Source of the DNA: Nesterenkonia sp. LB17
GTDB lineage: Bacteria > Actinomycetota > Actinomycetes > Actinomycetales > Micrococcaceae
Assembly (NCBI RefSeq): GCF_022565915.1
Contig: NZ_JAJOYX010000002.1
Location: 504,293-568,292 of the forward strand
Length of the DNA stretch: 64,000 bases
Direction of reading: 5' to 3'
Each line of letters begins with the position of its first letter. Positions within the stretch are counted from its first letter, which is position 1. Positions 56,827 to 64,000 of this stretch are shown one piece after another. The notes beneath the pieces were generated by a model. The model saw only the letters and a list, made by a program, of their open reading frames with translations, was not told the DNA's origin and made no database searches. A program made the position numbers and the translations under genes.

Positions 56827-59606
56827 GCATCAGTGACCTGACCGGCCGCTTCGCGCCGATCCCCGCCGCCCCCGCACGGCTGCCCCTCGACCACGCCCCC
56901 GGCACGGTCTTCCCCGGGCTGGATCCCGCCTGGTCCCGGCTGGTCACCGCCAAGACCGACGACGGCGCCCGGACCTTCCACGTGCTGGACACCGGCCCGG
57001 AGCTCGCCGCCCGCGGGATCACCCCGACCGGCACGATCCTCGCCGTGCACGGAAACCCCACCTGGTCCTACCTGTGGCGGCACGTGCTCTCCGGGTCTCT
57101 GGAGCGCGCCCGCAGCGGCGCCGCCTGGCGGGTGATCGCCCCGGACCAGCTGGACATGGGCTTCTCCGACAGGCTCTCGCACCCGGTGCCGCCCGCCGCC
57201 GACGCTCCCAGCTACCGCCGGCTCCCGGCGCGCCTGGGTGATCTGGACGCGCTCATGGACGCCCTGGACGTGGACACCAGCTCCCGGCTGGTCACCCTGG
57301 GGCACGACTGGGGCGGGATCATCTCGCTGGGCTGGGCCGTGCGTCAGGCCGGGCAGGTGGACGCCGCGATCACGCTCAACACCGCGGTGCACCATCCGGA
57401 AACAGATCAGGTCCCTGCCGCGCTGCGCGCCGCGATGGCCCCGGCGGTGCTTCCCGCCGCCACGATCGCCAGTGAGGGCTTCCTGAAGGTGACCCTCGGA
57501 CTCACCGAGGACCCGCTCCCCGAGGAGGTCCGCGAGGCCTACCGGGCCCCGTACACCTCTCGGCGCGGACGCGGAGGCATCGGCGGCTTCGTCGCCGACA
57601 TCCCTGCGGAGACCTCGCATGTCTCCCGCGCGGCGCTGACCGCGATCTCCTCCGGGCTGCGCGACTGGGACAAGCCCACGCTGCTGCTCTGGGGACCCAA
57701 GGACCCGGTCTTCCAGGACCGGTATCTGGCAGACCTGCAGTCCAGGGTGCCCCACGCCGACCTGCACCGCTTCGAAGGCGCCGGCCACATGCTCGCCGAG
57801 GACCGGGACATCAGCACCCCGATCTTCACCTGGCTCGATGACCACTTCGGCGCCGGCACAGCCCGCGCCGCGCTGGAATCCCCGGCTCCTGCGGGCCGGG
57901 TGCTCGGACTCCACGAGCAGCTGGCCGAACTGGCCGGCTCCGAACGGCGGACCAGCCCCGCCGTCGTCGACATGACCGCCGAGCCCGAGGCCTGGAGCAG
58001 TGCCGAGGATGCCGCCACCGGTGACCGCGCACTGAGCTGGGCGGAGCTCTCCGCCCAGGTGGACGCACTGGCCGTGGGCCTGTCGTATACCGGGGTGCGC
58101 CGCGGGGACCGGGTCTCGCTGCTGGTCCAGCCGGGCGCCTCGCTGACCGTGATCCTCTACGCCTGCATGCGCCTCGGCGCCGTGGCCGTGGTCGCCGACG
58201 CCGGCCTGGGGGTGCGCGGGATGACCCGCGCCGTCCGCGCCGCCCGGCCAGACTGGGTCATCGGGGCGCTGCCCGGACTCACCCTGGCGCGAAGCCTCGG
58301 CTGGCCCGGAAAGCTGATCAGCGCCCAGGCGCTCTCCCCCCGCCGCGCCCGCCTGCTGGGCACCGTGGCCTCGGTGGAGTCGCTGCTGAGCCGCCACGAG
58401 GGCGCCACCCCCGATCAGCTGGCGGCCCCCGCCGCAGATGACCCGGTGGCGATCCTGTTCACCTCCGGCTCCACCGGACCGGCAAAGGGCGTCATGTATA
58501 CCCACGGCCGGCTCGGCGCGCTGGTCGCGCTGCTGGTGGAGCAGTTCGACATCCGCCCTGGAGCCTCGCTGATCGCCGGCTTCGCACCGTTCGCCCTGCT
58601 GGGCCCCGCCATCGGCGCCACCTCGGTGACCCCGGACATGTCGGTGACCCGACCCGCCACGCTCACCGCCCAGGCCGTCGCGGATGCGGCCCTTGCCGGG
58701 AGCGCGACCATGTTCTTCGGCTCCCCCGCAGCGCTGCGCAACGTGGTCGCCACCGCGGGCCAGCTCACCGCGCTGCAGCGCCGGGGGCTCTCCGAGATCA
58801 CGCTGGTGCTCTCCGCCGGAGCCCCGGTGCACCCGGACCTGCTGAACGCCGTCCAGGAGATCTTCCCCGCGGCCGAGATCCACACCCCCTACGGGATGAC
58901 CGAGGGCCTGCTCCAGGCCGACATCGAACGCCGCCAGGTGCTCGAGGCGGCCGCCACCGGCCAGTCCGGGGTCTGCGTGGGCACACCGGTCGCGGGCGTG
59001 CGCTTCGCGCTGGCCCCGCTGGACGGCGTGGGACGACCCGCCGAGGAGCTGCTGGACCCCGCCGAGGCCGTCGGCGTGCTCGGCGAGATCGTGGTCTCCG
59101 CAGCGCATCTGAAGGCCGGCTACGACAGGCTCTGGCAGACCGAGCGGGCCTCCCGCCGGGACACCTTGGACGGGCTGATCTGGCACCGCACCAATGACAT
59201 CGGACACTTCGACGCCGAGAACCGGCTCTGGATCGAGGGCCGGCTGCAGCACGTGCTGACCACGCCCGCCGGGCCGCTTGGTCCGGGCACCGTGGAGACC
59301 CCGGTGGACGCGCTCGAAGAGGTGGCCCGCAGCGCCGCGGTGCCGGTGGGACCGCGAGGCACCCAGGCCGTCGTCGTGATCGTGGAACCGGCGCCGGACC
59401 GCAGCCTGCGCACCGGCCGGTCCCCGGTGGCCGAGATCAGCTTCGCCGCCCGGGTCCGCGAGGCCGCCGGCGAGGTTCCGGTCGCCGCCGTGCTGGTGCT
59501 CGACGAGCTGCCCACCGATGTTCGACACAACTCCAAGATCGATCGCACCCGACTGGCCGGCTGGGCCGAGAAGGTCCTCGCCGGCGAGAAGGTCGGGGCC
59601 CCATGA
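56820..59606 (+). CDS. oleBC: OleBC fusion: beta-lactone decarboxylase and beta-lactone synthetase
   Basis: 928 residues. Residues about 1-335 are OleB, an alpha/beta hydrolase of the haloalkane-dehalogenase type with HGNPTWSYLW, nucleophile Asp163 in LGHDWGGIISL and His near 322 in GAGHMLAED; it decarboxylates the beta-lactone to a cis-olefin. Residues about 350-928 are OleC, an acyl-AMP-ligase-fold enzyme with ILFTSGSTGPAKGVMYTHG and TPYGMTEGLLQ that closes the beta-lactone from the beta-hydroxy acid using ATP. The fusion is the form known from Micrococcus and relatives. Start overlaps oleA; end overlaps oleD (ATGA). Confidence 0.95.
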   Translation: MVSISDLTGRFAPIPAAPARLPLDHAPGTVFPGLDPAWSRLVTAKTDDGARTFHVLDTGPELAARGITPTGTILAVHGNPTWSYLWRHVLSGSLERARSGAAWRVIAPDQLDMGFSDRLSHPVPPAADAPSYRRLPARLGDLDALMDALDVDTSSRLVTLGHDWGGIISLGWAVRQAGQVDAAITLNTAVHHPETDQVPAALRAAMAPAVLPAATIASEGFLKVTLGLTEDPLPEEVREAYRAPYTSRRGRGGIGGFVADIPAETSHVSRAALTAISSGLRDWDKPTLLLWGPKDPVFQDRYLADLQSRVPHADLHRFEGAGHMLAEDRDISTPIFTWLDDHFGAGTARAALESPAPAGRVLGLHEQLAELAGSERRTSPAVVDMTAEPEAWSSAEDAATGDRALSWAELSAQVDALAVGLSYTGVRRGDRVSLLVQPGASLTVILYACMRLGAVAVVADAGLGVRGMTRAVRAARPDWVIGALPGLTLARSLGWPGKLISAQALSPRRARLLGTVASVESLLSRHEGATPDQLAAPAADDPVAILFTSGSTGPAKGVMYTHGRLGALVALLVEQFDIRPGASLIAGFAPFALLGPAIGATSVTPDMSVTRPATLTAQAVADAALAGSATMFFGSPAALRNVVATAGQLTALQRRGLSEITLVLSAGAPVHPDLLNAVQEIFPAAEIHTPYGMTEGLLQADIERRQVLEAAATGQSGVCVGTPVAGVRFALAPLDGVGRPAEELLDPAEAVGVLGEIVVSAAHLKAGYDRLWQTERASRRDTLDGLIWHRTNDIGHFDAENRLWIEGRLQHVLTTPAGPLGPGTVETPVDALEEVARSAAVPVGPRGTQAVVVIVEPAPDRSLRTGRSPVAEISFAARVREAAGEVPVAAVLVLDELPTDVRHNSKIDRTRLAGWAEKVLAGEKVGAP

Positions 59607-60625
59607 GCCGACTCATCGAACCCGGCGCCCGGGTGCTGGTCACCGGCGCCTCCGGGCTGCTGGGCCGCAGCGTGGCGCAGCGGCTGGTGGGCCAGGGCTA
59701 TCAGGTCACGGTGCTCCAGCGCGGCGCCTCCGGTCTGGACGGCGTGCACGAGGTGCGCGGCTCGCTCAGTGATCCGGCCGCCGTCGCGCGCGCCGTTCAG
59801 GGCCAGGACGCGGTGATCCACATGGCCGCGAAGGTCTCGGTCTCTGGTCGGCATGAGGACTTCGTGGAGGTCAACGTGCGCGGCACCCAGCGGCTGCTCG
59901 ACGCTGCGGTGGCCGCCGGGGTGACAGATTTCCTGCATGTGTCCTCCCCCTCGGTGGCCCACGCCGGGGCTTCGCTCATCGGCGCCGGCGCCGGGCCGGC
60001 GGATCCGCAGCACGCCGTGGGCAGCTATGCCAAGACCAAGGCGGAGGCCGAGCTGATCGCGCAGGCTCGCGGCGCCGCGGACATCAACGTGCTGATCCTG
60101 CGCCCGCATCTGGTCTGGGGCCCCGGCGACGGACAGCTGACCAGCCGGATCATCGACCGGGCCCGCTCCGGGCGGATGCCGATCCTCGGCTCCGGAGCCG
60201 CCCTGGTGGACACCCTCTACATCGACAACGCCGTGGACGCCTTCGTCGCCGGGCTGCGCCGGCTGCCGCAGATCGCCGGGCAGCGGCTGGTGCTCACCAA
60301 CGGTGAGCCGCGCCCGATCGGCGAGCTGATCACCGGCATCGCCGCCGCCGGCGGGGCCCCCGCTCCGCGGCTGCGCCTGGCGCCCGGGCTCGCCAAAGGG
60401 CTGGGCGCCGTCGTGGAACGTCTCTGGGCGCTCAGCGAGAAGCTCGCCGGCCCGCGCGCCGACGAGCCGCCGATGACGAAGTTCCTCGCCGAGCAGCTCT
60501 CCACGGCCCACTGGTTCGACCAGCGCACCACCCAGCACGCCCTCGACTGGACCCCCGAGGTCAGCCTGGACCAGGGCCTGGCGCTGCTGCGCGAGCATAT
60601 CCAGTCCACCGGCAAGGTCCTCTGA
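59603..60625 (+). CDS. oleD: OleD, 2-alkyl-3-ketoacid reductase (SDR family)
   Basis: 340 residues of the extended SDR / 3-beta-HSD type. NADPH-binding ARVLVTGASGLLGRSVA (about 9-25), catalytic Tyr/Lys in SYAKTKAEAE (about 141-150), and LVDTLYIDNAVDAF typical of the family. Reduces the OleA product to the beta-hydroxy acid used by OleC. Coupled to oleBC by ATGA. Its TGA stop is immediately followed by the left palindromic repeat. Confidence 0.94.
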   Translation: MSRLIEPGARVLVTGASGLLGRSVAQRLVGQGYQVTVLQRGASGLDGVHEVRGSLSDPAAVARAVQGQDAVIHMAAKVSVSGRHEDFVEVNVRGTQRLLDAAVAAGVTDFLHVSSPSVAHAGASLIGAGAGPADPQHAVGSYAKTKAEAELIAQARGAADINVLILRPHLVWGPGDGQLTSRIIDRARSGRMPILGSGAALVDTLYIDNAVDAFVAGLRRLPQIAGQRLVLTNGEPRPIGELITGIAAAGGAPAPRLRLAPGLAKGLGAVVERLWALSEKLAGPRADEPPMTKFLAEQLSTAHWFDQRTTQHALDWTPEVSLDQGLALLREHIQSTGKVL

Positions 60626-60631
60626 CCCTCC

Positions 60632-60660
60632 CCCCTCCTGGGTGGTTGAGTTCTCCGGTC
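60632..60660 (+). repeat. Left copy of 29-base inverted repeat
   Basis: Matches, inverted and with one mismatch, the copy at 62046-62074. With the TGACCC before it, shared by both copies, similarity extends to about 36 bases. It begins six bases after the oleD stop codon and contains the 5' arm of the hairpin at 60645-60686. Confidence 0.85.
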
Positions 60661-60686
60661 GGTACGTATCCACCGGAGAACTCAAC
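60645..60686. repeat. Palindromic hairpin downstream of oleD
   Basis: Perfect 15-base arms (GTTGAGTTCTCCGGT / ACCGGAGAACTCAAC) with a 12-base loop, 20 bases after the oleD stop. Could terminate the ole transcript, or be a REP-like element. Related to the hairpin at 62017-62064. Confidence 0.8.
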
Positions 60687-60793
60687 TGCCTTGGATAGGC
60701 GTGCCCGTGATGGGCGTCCCCAGGACAGGTGGCGCTCTCCACAGTTGCGCATCGGACGTGGTGGGCGGGTGAGTGCTCCGGCACGGTGTAGCC

Positions 60794-62092
60794 ATGACTT
60801 TCGAGACTCCCGCCGCTCCCGGTCCGATCCGGCTGATCCGCTCGGCCTGGCAGCCCGATGACCTGCACAGCGCCACCCGACTCTCGGCGCTGGTCGCCTC
60901 GGCGGCGCTGCTGCGGGTGCGCCGCGGGGTCTATGTCGACGCGGCCGCGTGGATCACGTCCCCGCCGTGGATACGCGCGCAGATCGCGGTCGCCGCCATG
61001 GCGCACCGCCGGCCGAACTCGCTGTTCTGCCGTGAATCGGCCCTGCTGCTCCACGGGCTCCCGCTGACGACGACGCCTCCGCACATCACCCTGCGCACGA
61101 ACGACGCCAGCCTGGTCGGTATCGGCCGCCGCGAACCGATGACCGGGACCACGATTGCCGAGAACTGGCTCGCCGCCTACCGGACCAGATTCCACGATGA
61201 CCACACGACGACGGCTGCTCTGCTGAACGTCCCGACCCGCCGCTTCGAGACGGTGCTGCCGCGCGGGATGACCCGCGGCGCCGCCCGGGAGGCCCAGCGG
61301 CGCGGCGCAGGCCCACAAGCGCAGGTGCGGCTCCCCGCGTCGGCCCTGCCCGCGGTGGCCGGGCCCGAGCCGGGGTACCTGGTGGAGCCGCTGGAACTGG
61401 TCCTGCCCGACGCCGTCTCGCGCATGCCCTTCCCCGACGCGGTGGCGGTCCTGGACGCGTTCCTGGCTCATCAGGCTCGGGGGAACCTCGCGGCGCCGCC
61501 TGACCCCGCTCCTGATCCCGCGACCTGGGGCGAGGCGTTCCTCTCGCACCGGCTCACCGGGCGCTGGAAGGCTGCGCTGAGCTTCGCCGATGCCCATGCC
61601 GAGTCCCCCGGCGAATCGGTCTCCCGAGCGCTGATCCACCAGCTAGGCTTCGCCGCCCCGACGCTGCAGGTGTGGATCGCCACGGATGTCGGGGATCAGC
61701 GCGTGGACTTCGAATGGACCGTGCAGGGCTCCTCCCGGACGTCACCCGCGGTGCACCGGATCGTCGGCGAGTTCGACGGGCGCGGGAAGTACTTCGACGA
61801 GGCGCTGCTGCGGGGCCGCCCCGCCAAGGAGGTGCACTACGCCGAGAAGCTCCGTGAGGACGCGATCCGCCGCACCGGACGCGGCATGGTGCGCTGGGAC
61901 TGGACCAACCTCTCCCACCCGGAGATGCTCGCGGCGAAGCTCGGCCAGGCCGGGGTGCCCCGGGTCCGACCCGAATCCCGACCTACCACGGTGATGATGC
62001 CCGGCACCTCTCCCCCGTGGTTGAGTCTTCCGGCCGAAACGTCAGGACCGGATAACTCAACCACCCAGGAGGGGTGGGTCAGTAGCGGCTGA
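60794..62092 (+). CDS. AbiEi-like / DUF559-type protein with PD-(D/E)XK-like C-terminal domain
   Basis: 432 residues. The N-terminal half (about 10-120) resembles the winged-helix antitoxin domain of AbiEi-type proteins (RLSALVASAALLRVRRGVYVDA...). The C-terminal part has the features of the DUF559/Vsr-like nuclease fold common in actinobacteria: RVDFEW, GEFDGRGKYFDE (E-x-D...K) and REDAIRRTGRGMVRWDW. Which DNA or RNA it acts on is unknown, and no toxin partner is adjacent. The last ~25 residues are encoded by the right palindromic repeat. It overlaps the convergent acyl-CoA synthetase gene by 14 bases. Confidence 0.75.
   Translation: MTFETPAAPGPIRLIRSAWQPDDLHSATRLSALVASAALLRVRRGVYVDAAAWITSPPWIRAQIAVAAMAHRRPNSLFCRESALLLHGLPLTTTPPHITLRTNDASLVGIGRREPMTGTTIAENWLAAYRTRFHDDHTTTAALLNVPTRRFETVLPRGMTRGAAREAQRRGAGPQAQVRLPASALPAVAGPEPGYLVEPLELVLPDAVSRMPFPDAVAVLDAFLAHQARGNLAAPPDPAPDPATWGEAFLSHRLTGRWKAALSFADAHAESPGESVSRALIHQLGFAAPTLQVWIATDVGDQRVDFEWTVQGSSRTSPAVHRIVGEFDGRGKYFDEALLRGRPAKEVHYAEKLREDAIRRTGRGMVRWDWTNLSHPEMLAAKLGQAGVPRVRPESRPTTVMMPGTSPPWLSLPAETSGPDNSTTQEGWVSSG
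62017..62064. repeat. Palindromic hairpin at the 3' end of the nuclease-like gene
   Basis: 17-base arms (starting GTGGTTGAGT at 62017 and ending ACTCAACCAC at 62064) with two mismatches and a 14-base loop. It lies within the coding sequence of the nuclease-like gene and downstream of the convergent acyl-CoA synthetase gene, which it could terminate. Confidence 0.75.
62046..62074 (-). repeat. Right copy of 29-base inverted repeat
   Basis: Reverse complement of 60632-60660 except for one base. Seen from the minus strand it follows the acyl-CoA synthetase stop codon (TGACCC) by four bases, just as the left copy follows oleD. Confidence 0.85.
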
Positions 62093-64000
62093 TCGCGCGG
62101 CGGGCTGAGTCGGTGCGCTGCTCCGGGTTCGCGATCTCGATCGCGGCGTGCAGCACCTGCACGCCCTCCGGCGAGGCCAGCACCGGGGTCAGCTCCAGCG
62201 ATGCCACCTGGGGGTGGTTGTCCTTGAGCGTGGCGACCCGCTGCAGCGTGTCCTCCAGTGCGACGATGTCCACCGCCGGGACGCCCTTATAGCCGAAGAG
62301 CCGCTTCGCCGCGCGCGGGCGGCGGACCAGCCCGCGCACGTCCTGATCGGTCAGCGGCGGCACCGCATGCGCCCAGTCGTCCAGCAGCTCCACCGCGTCG
62401 CCGGAGAGTCCGAAGGAGACCACCGGGCCCATCAGCGGGTCCTCGATCGCGCGGATCACGCAGCCCTGTCCGGCCGGCGCCATGGACTGCAGCTCCAGGC
62501 CCCCGGCCCCGTAGTCGGCCAGGACCCGGCGCATCTCAGCGATCGTGCGGCGCAGCGCCTCGGGGTCCTCGATGTTCAGCTGGACCCCGCCGAGGTCCAG
62601 GCGGTGACGCAGGTAGGTGTTGGTGGACTTCACCGCCACCGGATAGCCCAGCGTCTCCGCCGCGGCCAGGGCCTCCTCCTCAGTGGAGAACACCACCGAG
62701 CGCAGCATGGACAGCCCGTAGGCCTCCAGCAGCTCGGCGCAGCGCTCGGGCTCGAGCTGACGCAGCGTCGCGCCCTCGACACCGTCGAGCCAGCCGTCGA
62801 GCAGCTCGTCGCCGCGCCGGGACACCGTGGTGCCCTCCAGCCCGACCGGCACATAGGGCTCCCCGATCCCCTCGGAGCGCCAACGCTGATAGCGCACGAT
62901 CTTCGCCAGCGCGGTCAGCGAGCGTTCCGGGGAGGAGAACACCGGGAAGCCCTGCTGCAGCGACCCCTTCTCGATCACCGGCGCCGCGTTGCCGATGTGG
63001 TTCAGCGGCACGCTGGTGTCCAGCACCCCGATCCAGGAGGCCACCATCGGTTTGGTGTGCTGGCGCGCTGTCTGCGAGATCAGTCGGCTGTGGTCATAGT
63101 GCTCCCCGGTGACCGCCGGCTCCAGGCACAGCGCCACCGCGTCCACGTCCTCGGCGGTGAACAGCTTCTGCAGCGCTCCGGCCAGCGCGGCGTCGGCCTC
63201 GGCGCGGGGAAGATCAAGGTCCAGGTCCCCGACGACGTGGGTCGCGGTCAGGTCCAGGGTGCCGGCGGTGTCGGCCAGGATCCGGCTCATCGAGGGTGAG
63301 TTCGAGAGGATCCCGACGCGCCCGCCGCCGGGCAGCGGCTGGGTGGCGAGCACCTGGAGCACATCCATGAGCGAATCATGGTTGCCCACCTGGATCACCC
63401 CTGAATGCTCCAGCATCGAGTCCACCGCGCCCATCGGCGCCCTGGTGGTGCGGACCTCGTGGCCCGGGGGCAGGCTGCGCCCCATGACGTCGGACTTCGC
63501 CACGACGACCGGCTTGGTGCGCGAGAGCCTGCGCGCGATGCGGGAGAACTTGCGCGGATTGCCGAAGCTCTCCAGATAGACCCCGACGGCGCGGGTGGAG
63601 TCGTCGTCCTCGAAGTACTGCATCGCGTCATTGCCGGAGAGATCCGCGCGGTTGCCCGCGGAGATCACCGAGGACAGTCCCAGCTCGCGCCGGTTGGCCT
63701 GGGCGAAGAGCGAGACCCCGATCGAGGCGGACTGGCTGAACAGGCCCACGCCCCCGCGCAGCGGCATGGTCGGCGAGAGCGAGGCGTTCAGCGAGACGTC
63801 CGGATCGGTGTTCAGCAGCCCGACCGAGGCCGGACCGATCACGCGCATCCCCCAGCGCCGGGCCAGGCGGACCAGCTCGCGCTGATCCAGCCGCTGATGG
63901 TCCTCCTCCTCGGAGTCGCGGCCAAGGTCGGGGGCGGTGATGATCAGGATCCCCTTGACTCCGTTGCGTCCGCAGTCGGCCACCACCTCGGTCAGGTGCT
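62079..64000 (-). CDS. Acetate-CoA ligase (ADP-forming) family protein, N-terminus beyond the window
   Basis: At least 640 codons, open to the window edge. Visible parts: end of the CoA-binding domain (GMRVIGPASVGLLNT), the succinyl-CoA-ligase-like flavodoxin domain (GGVGLFSQSASIGVSLFAQA, VGILSNSPSMSRILAD), and an ATP-grasp domain at the C-terminus (LGYPVAVKSTNTYLRHRLDLGGVQLNI, FGYKGVPAVDIVALED). Makes acyl-CoA from an acid with ATP to ADP. In related Micrococcales the protein often carries an N-terminal GNAT domain; whether it does here is outside the window. The phosphorylated His loop region resembles non-catalytic members, so activity is uncertain. Confidence 0.88.
   Translation of the reverse strand, partial: HLTEVVADCGRNGVKGILIITAPDLGRDSEEEDHQRLDQRELVRLARRWGMRVIGPASVGLLNTDPDVSLNASLSPTMPLRGGVGLFSQSASIGVSLFAQANRRELGLSSVISAGNRADLSGNDAMQYFEDDDSTRAVGVYLESFGNPRKFSRIARRLSRTKPVVVAKSDVMGRSLPPGHEVRTTRAPMGAVDSMLEHSGVIQVGNHDSLMDVLQVLATQPLPGGGRVGILSNSPSMSRILADTAGTLDLTATHVVGDLDLDLPRAEADAALAGALQKLFTAEDVDAVALCLEPAVTGEHYDHSRLISQTARQHTKPMVASWIGVLDTSVPLNHIGNAAPVIEKGSLQQGFPVFSSPERSLTALAKIVRYQRWRSEGIGEPYVPVGLEGTTVSRRGDELLDGWLDGVEGATLRQLEPERCAELLEAYGLSMLRSVVFSTEEEALAAAETLGYPVAVKSTNTYLRHRLDLGGVQLNIEDPEALRRTIAEMRRVLADYGAGGLELQSMAPAGQGCVIRAIEDPLMGPVVSFGLSGDAVELLDDWAHAVPPLTDQDVRGLVRRPRAAKRLFGYKGVPAVDIVALEDTLQRVATLKDNHPQVASLELTPVLASPEGVQVLHAAIEIANPEQRTDSARRAISRY

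Follow-up and report, generated by a model that had tools for sequence, protein, structure and literature searches.

Why is a single nuclease-like gene enclosed by two copies of one palindrome, and do the gene and the palindromes belong together? The question is raised by a locus in a 64,000-nucleotide stretch of the Nesterenkonia sp. LB17 genome (contig NZ_JAJOYX010000002.1, positions 504,293 to 568,292; the whole stretch is hereafter called the window, and positions are counted from its first letter). The gene lies on the forward strand between an oleD-like gene on the same strand and an acyl-CoA synthetase-like (ACS) gene on the opposite strand. The association of this gene with the palindromes is well supported by the analyses below, and on balance we lean towards a reading in which the two form one system, the nuclease recognizing, maintaining and spreading a small palindrome population.

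The palindrome is a dispersed repeat of fixed design

An earlier note on the locus had described a 29-nt sequence at 60632-60660 that recurs inverted at 62046-62074 with one mismatch, together with two hairpins of the form GTTGAGT-N28-ACTCAAC at 60645-60686 and 62020-62061. Both features are present as described. The left 44-nt palindromic core lies 18 nt past the oleD stop codon, and the right core overlaps the end of the nuclease gene and lies 16 nt before the synthetase stop codon. In a repeat search, the two copies pair as a 68-nt inverted repeat that is 78% complementary, and the pattern GTTGAGT-N15,40-ACTCAAC matches twice in the window versus 0.00 times in 100 shuffles. The four copies that were folded as RNA all give strong hairpins. 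Two further details of the note are of narrower validity: the TGACCC shared by both sides stands at 60623-60628 and, reversed, at 62076-62081, but copies elsewhere lie at varying distances past stop codons; and the nuclease C-terminus is encoded inside the right repeat in the window gene and some orthologues, but not in general. Rfam gave no gathering-score match in the window, only two sub-threshold chance matches, both intragenic, and nothing at the nine homologue loci scanned.

The palindrome is not confined to this locus. In the whole assembly of the same strain (G000; 2.82 Mb, 10 contigs), the GTTGAGT pattern occurs at 10 places, every spacer being 28 nt long (backward control, 0); a mismatch-tolerant pattern adds one further place, and a covariance model returns 24 strand-hits at 12 places. 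The recurrence beyond the two original sites, which the note had raised as a condition, is thus real, with 12 copies in this genome. Spacer lengths other than 28 were allowed in the searches and a single length was recovered; as part of the 46 copies aligned here came from a fixed-spacing scan, the absence of indels rests on the open-spacer searches. In the alignment of these 46 copies, the GTTGAGT block, a TCCGG block and the center are strongly conserved, the center being exactly ACGT in 34 of them. The variable positions co-vary, with 104 two-sided cells versus 65.6 ± 6.1 after shuffling (0 of 500 shuffles reach this value), a count that is not a probability because the copies include orthologues. 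The consensus shows no GTAG tag at the palindrome ends.

The genomic context of 47 copies from seven genomes is biased towards gene ends: 27 lie between convergent genes, 17 between tandem genes, two between divergent genes (a single site, in G000 and G020) and one at a locus edge, and 44 of the 47 (11 of 12 in G000) have a stop codon no more than 100 nt away or extend into the end of a gene. Such positions and the stable folds are what one would expect of ordinary bidirectional intrinsic terminators that flank the gene by chance, and behind fumC, one of the places of the palindrome in this clade, several other lineages do carry hairpins unrelated to it. We nonetheless judge this explanation very improbable. 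A T-run follows the stem in only 4 of 46 copies, no palindrome copy in the window stretch passes a terminator scan, and a terminator needs neither one spacer length nor an exact ACGT center.

In one clade, the number and integrity of the palindromes track the gene

Six Nesterenkonia genomes carry an orthologue of the nuclease gene at the oleD-ACS junction (G000, G018, G020, G021, G022 and G027), and the covariance model returns 24, 26, 30, 30, 26 and 32 strand-hits from them, respectively, or about 12-16 copies each if two hits are counted per copy. Three genomes without the gene return 14 (G012), 10 (G016) and 8 (G011), at 7, 6 and 4 places, and the remaining 21 of the 30 Nesterenkonia genomes searched with the model return 0. 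Copies of at least 60 bits number 12, 11, 14, 13, 13 and 13 in the holders, in the order given above, and 4, 1 and 0 in G012, G016 and G011; of the 46 copies used to train the model (R1), two are from G012, and G011 and G016 contributed none, so that the scores of these genomes may be lowered. In a tree built from oleD and ACS, G012 groups with G018 (100/100), G016 with G027 (99/98) and G011 with both (100/100). The three gene-less genomes are nested among the six holders, and the fewest events that explain this are three losses. G012 retains a short hairpin at the oleD-ACS junction.

After loss of the gene, the palindromes decay. Mean arm differences among the copies read are 0.5-1.6 in the holders versus 2.8-3.9 in the gene-less genomes (Mann-Whitney on copies, p = 2e-6), and each of the three gene-less genome means exceeds each of the six holder means, which occurs in 1 of 84 permutations with relatedness not removed. 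Arms were read for 12/12 copies in G000, 12/~13 in G018, 15/15 in G020, 13/~15 in G021, 13/13 in G022 and 13/~16 in G027, and for 7/7, 5/6 and 4/4 in G012, G016 and G011. The unread copies are the weaker matches (below ~60 bits), which biases the means of G018, G021 and G027 downwards; if 6 mismatches are assumed for each unread copy, they become ~1.3, ~1.6 and ~2.3, still below those of the gene-less genomes. A spurious G020 match (L021:2700) was dropped before the arms were counted, and a G012 value of 11 mismatches, due to a 1-nt indel, was retained. Within this one clade, then, the palindromes appear to depend on the gene, and the possibility allowed for in the earlier note, that the repeats behave independently of it, finds no support in either copy number or intactness. 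That both follow the nuclease gene across the 30 genomes searched is also difficult to reconcile with terminators.

Homologues in other actinobacteria are bracketed by palindromes of their own

A scan of GTDB genomes gave at least 568 confirmed homologue stretches, of which the best 80 were used. They belong to Micrococcales, mostly Nesterenkonia, Sinomonas, Arthrobacter and Microbacteriaceae, and to a small number of other actinobacteria, Gordonia soli among them; for the analyses of flanks and palindromes, the N-terminal limits of the genes were estimated from the query range. The 300-bp bin adjoining the gene contains palindromes with a score of at least 14 in 34 of 80 upstream flanks and in 38 of 79 downstream flanks, and 53 of the 80 loci have one on at least one side; the eight further bins, out to 1.5 kb, hold them at 0-2 of 77-79 loci each. 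A comparison of the flanks that made no use of the palindromes leads to the same picture, with the upstream and downstream flanks sharing a repeat (local score at least 18) at 47 of 80 loci versus 15 of 2000 cross-locus pairs. Here 80 of 81 rows were usable (the 80 loci plus the window), and the best cross-locus pairs include related loci and three long matches.

Distant homologues have palindromes of unrelated sequence: among pairs whose nuclease domains are less than 60% identical, 3 of 1344 reach a palindrome score of at least 20, versus 12 of 34 pairs above 60%, a comparison qualified by the shared descent of the flanks. Likeness between palindromes is found mainly where the nucleases are similar (Mantel r = 0.46, p = 0.0005). 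Matching flank repeats around homologues whose palindromes are unrelated in sequence again argue against chance terminators. What a third of the palindromes do have in common is a geometry, namely an arm repeat of at least 5 nt at an offset of exactly 19 nt (18 of 52 palindromes; at most 4 of 53 for any other offset from 8 to 30). The GTTGAG family of Nesterenkonia follows this geometry only loosely, its TCC.GG motifs being ~18 nt apart.

Dispersal is also seen in the two other palindrome families tested for it. Gordonia soli has 16 forward and 16 reverse arms that make up 15 whole palindromes of 68 nt each and two single arms, and two of the 15 bracket the gene. Of the five whole palindromes of Nesterenkonia alba, two enclose the gene; the genome also has two single arms (the assemblies G004 and G119 have identical coordinates and were counted once). 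The backward control was 0 for both species.

The gene encodes an AbiEi-like protein with a nuclease-like domain

The earlier note had read the protein as an AbiEi-like N-terminus joined to a PD-(D/E)XK-type domain, an assignment with which profiles and structural models agree, the nuclease-fold matches being weak. The window protein itself falls into no family of Pfam or NCBIfam, matches PHROGs at chance level only and gave nothing useful in a search of PDB sequences. The PADLOC AbiEi model, by comparison, matches residues 26-96 (E = 2.3e-8), and when 26 family members were compared with Pfam (E at most 0.1), 16 matched AbiEi_4, 7 DUF559 and 2 MTES_1575, the latter two recalling DUF559/MTES_1575/Vsr-like nucleases; there were two stray matches. 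No transposase family of Pfam matches the window protein or its 26-member family. The AlphaFold model has a mean predicted local distance difference test (pLDDT) value of 85, or 90 for the C-terminal domain alone. The top Foldseek match of the full model is Rv2827c (1zel; E = 2.6e-3, prob 0.93), and the C-terminal domain retrieves MspJI, AF1548 and R2 retrotransposon proteins on top, with N.BspD6I and BamHI lower; several of these are PD-(D/E)XK enzymes. In an alignment of 26 sequences (A1, from which L037 of G027, with an in-frame TAA, L055, L059 and L060 were left out), the residues common to all 26 include E274, D305, E326, D328 and K332.

G000 holds a single full-length copy of the nuclease gene. 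The ratio of nonsynonymous to synonymous substitution rates (dN/dS) between G000 and four orthologues is 0.26-0.38 for the nuclease and 0.07-0.10 for the neighboring synthetase, consistent with a gene that is constrained but fast-evolving. A search of 50,697 phage records gave no match to the gene, and one of 72,556 plasmid records gave a single partial match. The features of the locus are collected in Table 1.

Table 1. Features of the nuclease locus, in window coordinates.
Feature	Positions	Strand	Basis
Stop codon of the left neighbor (oleD-like NAD-dependent epimerase/3-beta-HSD; gene 59603-60625)	60623-60625	+	Open reading frame list; Pfam
Left palindrome (44-nt core at 60644-60687, with an outer stem outside the core)	60636-60695		Repeat and pattern searches; RNA fold z -5.97
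Nuclease gene, 432 aa from ATG 60794 (alternative start GTG 60773)	60794-62092	+	Open reading frame list, alignment, AlphaFold model
AbiEi-like winged-helix N-terminal region (predicted), residues ~26-96	60869-61081	+	PADLOC AbiEi; Foldseek Rv2827c (1zel)
DUF559/PD-(D/E)XK-like domain (predicted), residues ~250-391	61541-61966	+	Invariant residues; Pfam of family; AlphaFold/Foldseek
Right palindrome (core 62019-62062; overlaps last ~20 codons of the nuclease gene)	62005-62076		Repeat and pattern searches; RNA fold z -6.02
Stop codon of the right neighbor (acyl-CoA synthetase-like, ATP-grasp_5 + Succ_CoA_lig; gene 62079-63986)	62079-62081	-	Open reading frame list; Pfam

Concerted change, mobility and the rival explanations

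The palindrome arms of one genome have changed together. In G021 (L258-L267), TTGC replaces TTGA in 20 of 26 arms, as against 0 of 162 in the other eight genomes. This shift from TTGAGTT towards TTGCGTT affects unlinked sites genome-wide, and in most cases the partner arm has changed too. Such change in concert speaks for a sequence-specific partner. We consider it very likely that the protein recognizes the palindromes.

Behind ACS, nucleases of two separate clades are found. A nuclease of a different clade lies directly behind ACS in G002, G015 and G001 (L175, L176 and L177), with oleD on the other side in G002 and no oleD within the examined stretches of G015 and G001. The two nuclease groups found behind ACS do not form one clade (approximately unbiased test, p-AU = 0.0015), the G015 gene is reversed and the hairpins differ; in G019 (L173), only fragments lie behind ACS. 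The place looks like a hotspot, and the palindrome-nuclease unit seems to have moved on a longer time scale.

Several observations weigh against a nuclease that spreads its own palindromes. At the fumC and nuclease-downstream sites of G021, the spacer still resembles the one found there in other species and the arms are changed; with site-specific spacers kept, selection on a binding site fits at least as well as copying, and the pattern argues more for selection or short-tract conversion than for wholesale copying. Many of the Nesterenkonia copies have counterparts at orthologous sites, so that spreading is slow, and no clean, recent insertion was found opposite an exact empty site. The site at C5:177355 in G000 (L017:7365) and its G020 orthologue (L194:1899) are located between two divergently oriented genes whose predicted starts are both over 130 nt away, so palindromes are not always at gene ends. 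Gene-less G012 keeps the four copies of at least 60 bits mentioned above. The G027 orthologue (L037) has an in-frame TAA, yet its genome gives the highest strand-hit count; this gene is probably broken, and the palindromes of G027 are mostly intact, as expected from a recent lesion. Among the homologues, 27 of 80 loci have no palindrome at threshold, and hence the expectation that homologues elsewhere carry palindromes holds for many but not for all; 33 of 80 have no matching flank repeat. The Mantel correlation of palindrome likeness with nuclease likeness is not independent proof, since flanking palindromes and gene share descent. Lastly, the Foldseek matches of the C-terminal domain all have E values of at least 0.03 and are mixed with unrelated folds such as cofilin.

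The main rival, and a serious one, is a regulator-operator network, in which a DNA-binding regulator of the AbiEi type would have the palindromes as its operators, or as termination or insulation sites, that selection keeps without any copying by a nuclease. AbiEi antitoxins, of which Rv2827c of M. tuberculosis is one, are described as autoregulating through binding to inverted repeats in their own promoters (PMC7319586). The positions near stop codons (44 of 47 copies) and the strong RNA hairpins of the four folded copies would suit such sites, recognition positions that change in place in G021 beside site-specific spacers would suit a regulator, and decay after gene loss is also expected of it. 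Against it stand the nuclease-motif residues invariant in 26 of 26 sequences; one would not expect operators to flank the gene on both sides and to follow unrelated house-keeping genes as well; and the occurrence behind ACS of units from separate clades, in one case reversed, points to mobility. We regard this rival as possible, but as doubtful.

Mobility could also be that of an element resembling an insertion sequence (IS), with the nuclease as transposase, the palindromes as its ends and the dispersed copies as solo ends or miniature derivatives. The palindrome-gene-palindrome unit measures ~1.4 kb, two non-monophyletic units lie behind ACS, one in the opposite orientation, and the copies are closely paired in each of four genomes (see below), all of which an IS-like element could explain. 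It would not be expected to leave a single full-length gene in G000 and the same site in six genomes, nor to be so nearly absent from the plasmid and phage records. No target duplication was found at the junctions read, and no transposase family was matched. We think an IS-like element improbable.

A proposed repeat-nuclease system and its relation to known systems

Based on the above data, we propose the following mechanism for a single system of nuclease and palindromes. The AbiEi-like winged helix would read a short motif, which in many families is present twice per arm, and the PD-(D/E)XK-like domain would cut the palindrome, or a hairpin extruded from it, near the conserved center. Rare repair or copying events would then place and keep the copies, mostly just behind stop codons, sites that might be used because hairpins are tolerated there. 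The palindrome sequence would have diverged separately in each nuclease lineage. That the N-terminal part binds palindromes is plausible because AbiEi antitoxins bind inverted repeats (PMC7319586). What the sequences show directly is the bracketing of the gene, the dispersal of the palindromes, their co-occurrence with the gene, their decay once it is lost, the joint change of the arms and, in a third of the palindromes, a common geometry; from these patterns we infer direct binding, cleavage and nuclease-driven copying. Maintenance and spreading of the palindromes by the nuclease domain is the best single, if tentative, account of these patterns. Evenly balanced, in our estimation, is the wider claim that AbiEi_4-DUF559 nucleases make up a widespread actinobacterial repeat-nuclease class independent of the RAYT enzymes discussed below, often with several paralogues per genome, each maintaining and occasionally spreading its own dispersed palindrome; these palindromes would share a geometry of four motifs and a 19-nt offset, and specificity would drift freely from lineage to lineage.

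The proposed system parallels that of repetitive extragenic palindromes (REPs) and their REP-associated tyrosine transposases (RAYTs), together called REPtrons, a likeness that the earlier note had suggested with an unrelated enzyme and that gains support from the dispersal, the homologue palindromes and the gene-linked copy number. RAYT genes are single-copy and vertically inherited and adjoin their own REPs, and REPINs are more numerous in E. coli genomes that have a RAYT gene than in those that lack it (PMC8049555, PMC3116915). The nuclease gene is likewise a single-copy, vertically inherited chromosomal gene (in G000 and its clade), it lies beside family-specific palindromes dispersed outside genes, as RAYT genes do (PMC8049555, PMC3116915, PMC3733652), and genomes with it have more repeats than genomes without (nine genomes of one clade). 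The enzymes are different, however, an AbiEi_4 + DUF559/PD-(D/E)XK-like protein here and a Y1/HUH transposase in the RAYTs. The palindromes also differ in being longer (~60-70 bp with the outer stem), in carrying in many cases a 19-nt motif repeat and in lacking the GTAG tag, and there are 5-16 copies in each gene-holding genome examined as compared with 69-235 REPINs in E. coli. Since both enzyme and repeat design differ, the system is not a RAYT. One large REP group is said to be without a dedicated transposase (PMC3733652).

The second relative is the type IV toxin-antitoxin protein AbiEi (S. agalactiae AbiEi, Rv2827c), which the N-terminal region resembles both by profile and by the structural match to Rv2827c. 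The C-terminal half is instead nuclease-like, and the repeats lie on both sides of the gene and genome-wide. No AbiEii/DUF1814 toxin gene lies beside the nuclease gene, whose neighbors are the oleD-like and ACS genes. A literature search whose reach excluded preprints and most subscription journals found no description of palindromes tied to AbiEi/DUF559 nucleases, nor any link between DUF559/MTES_1575/Vsr-like nucleases and palindromes.

To our knowledge, no enzymes other than RAYTs are dedicated to a dispersed palindrome family in bacteria. If the proposed system is real, a second, unrelated enzyme class would show that the repeat-enzyme arrangement evolved more than once. It would also assign a function to AbiEi_4-DUF559 proteins, whose two parts are described in Pfam as no more than an antitoxin regulator and a domain of unknown function. 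A shared geometry with free sequence makes specificity testable, with the presumed binding site lying beside many of the genes in dozens of natural variants.

Arrangement of the copies and further palindromes

Palindromes often occur in close pairs around one or a few genes, as at C6:77171/77906, C5:176202/177355 and C1:606020/608777 of G000. In each of four genomes (G000, G020, G022 and G027), 8 of the 12-14 listed copies have a neighbor within 3 kb versus 0.3-0.4 expected. As regards the idea that the bracketed genes are mobile cassettes, many of the pairs sit at orthologous sites. The G020 pair 532405/532861 was considered as the fumC site and rejected, being a different site. Two copies 11.7 kb apart on C3 of G000 (L014:6860 and L015:6601) have mirrored, near-identical spacers in G000, G018 and G020, which suggests exchange between the two. 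An invertible segment was considered for this pair and rejected, the enclosed genes, an ordinary pentose-phosphate cluster and its neighbors, having one and the same orientation with respect to the flanks in G000, G018, G020 and G027.

A Micrococcales repeat, GGTTGAGCNNGTCGAAACC, has no match in any locus examined. Behind fumC of N. alba (G004, L221), where the other clade has the GTTGAG palindrome, there is a different long palindrome, TTTTCATCACCTGATGTAC..., which may represent another repeat family.

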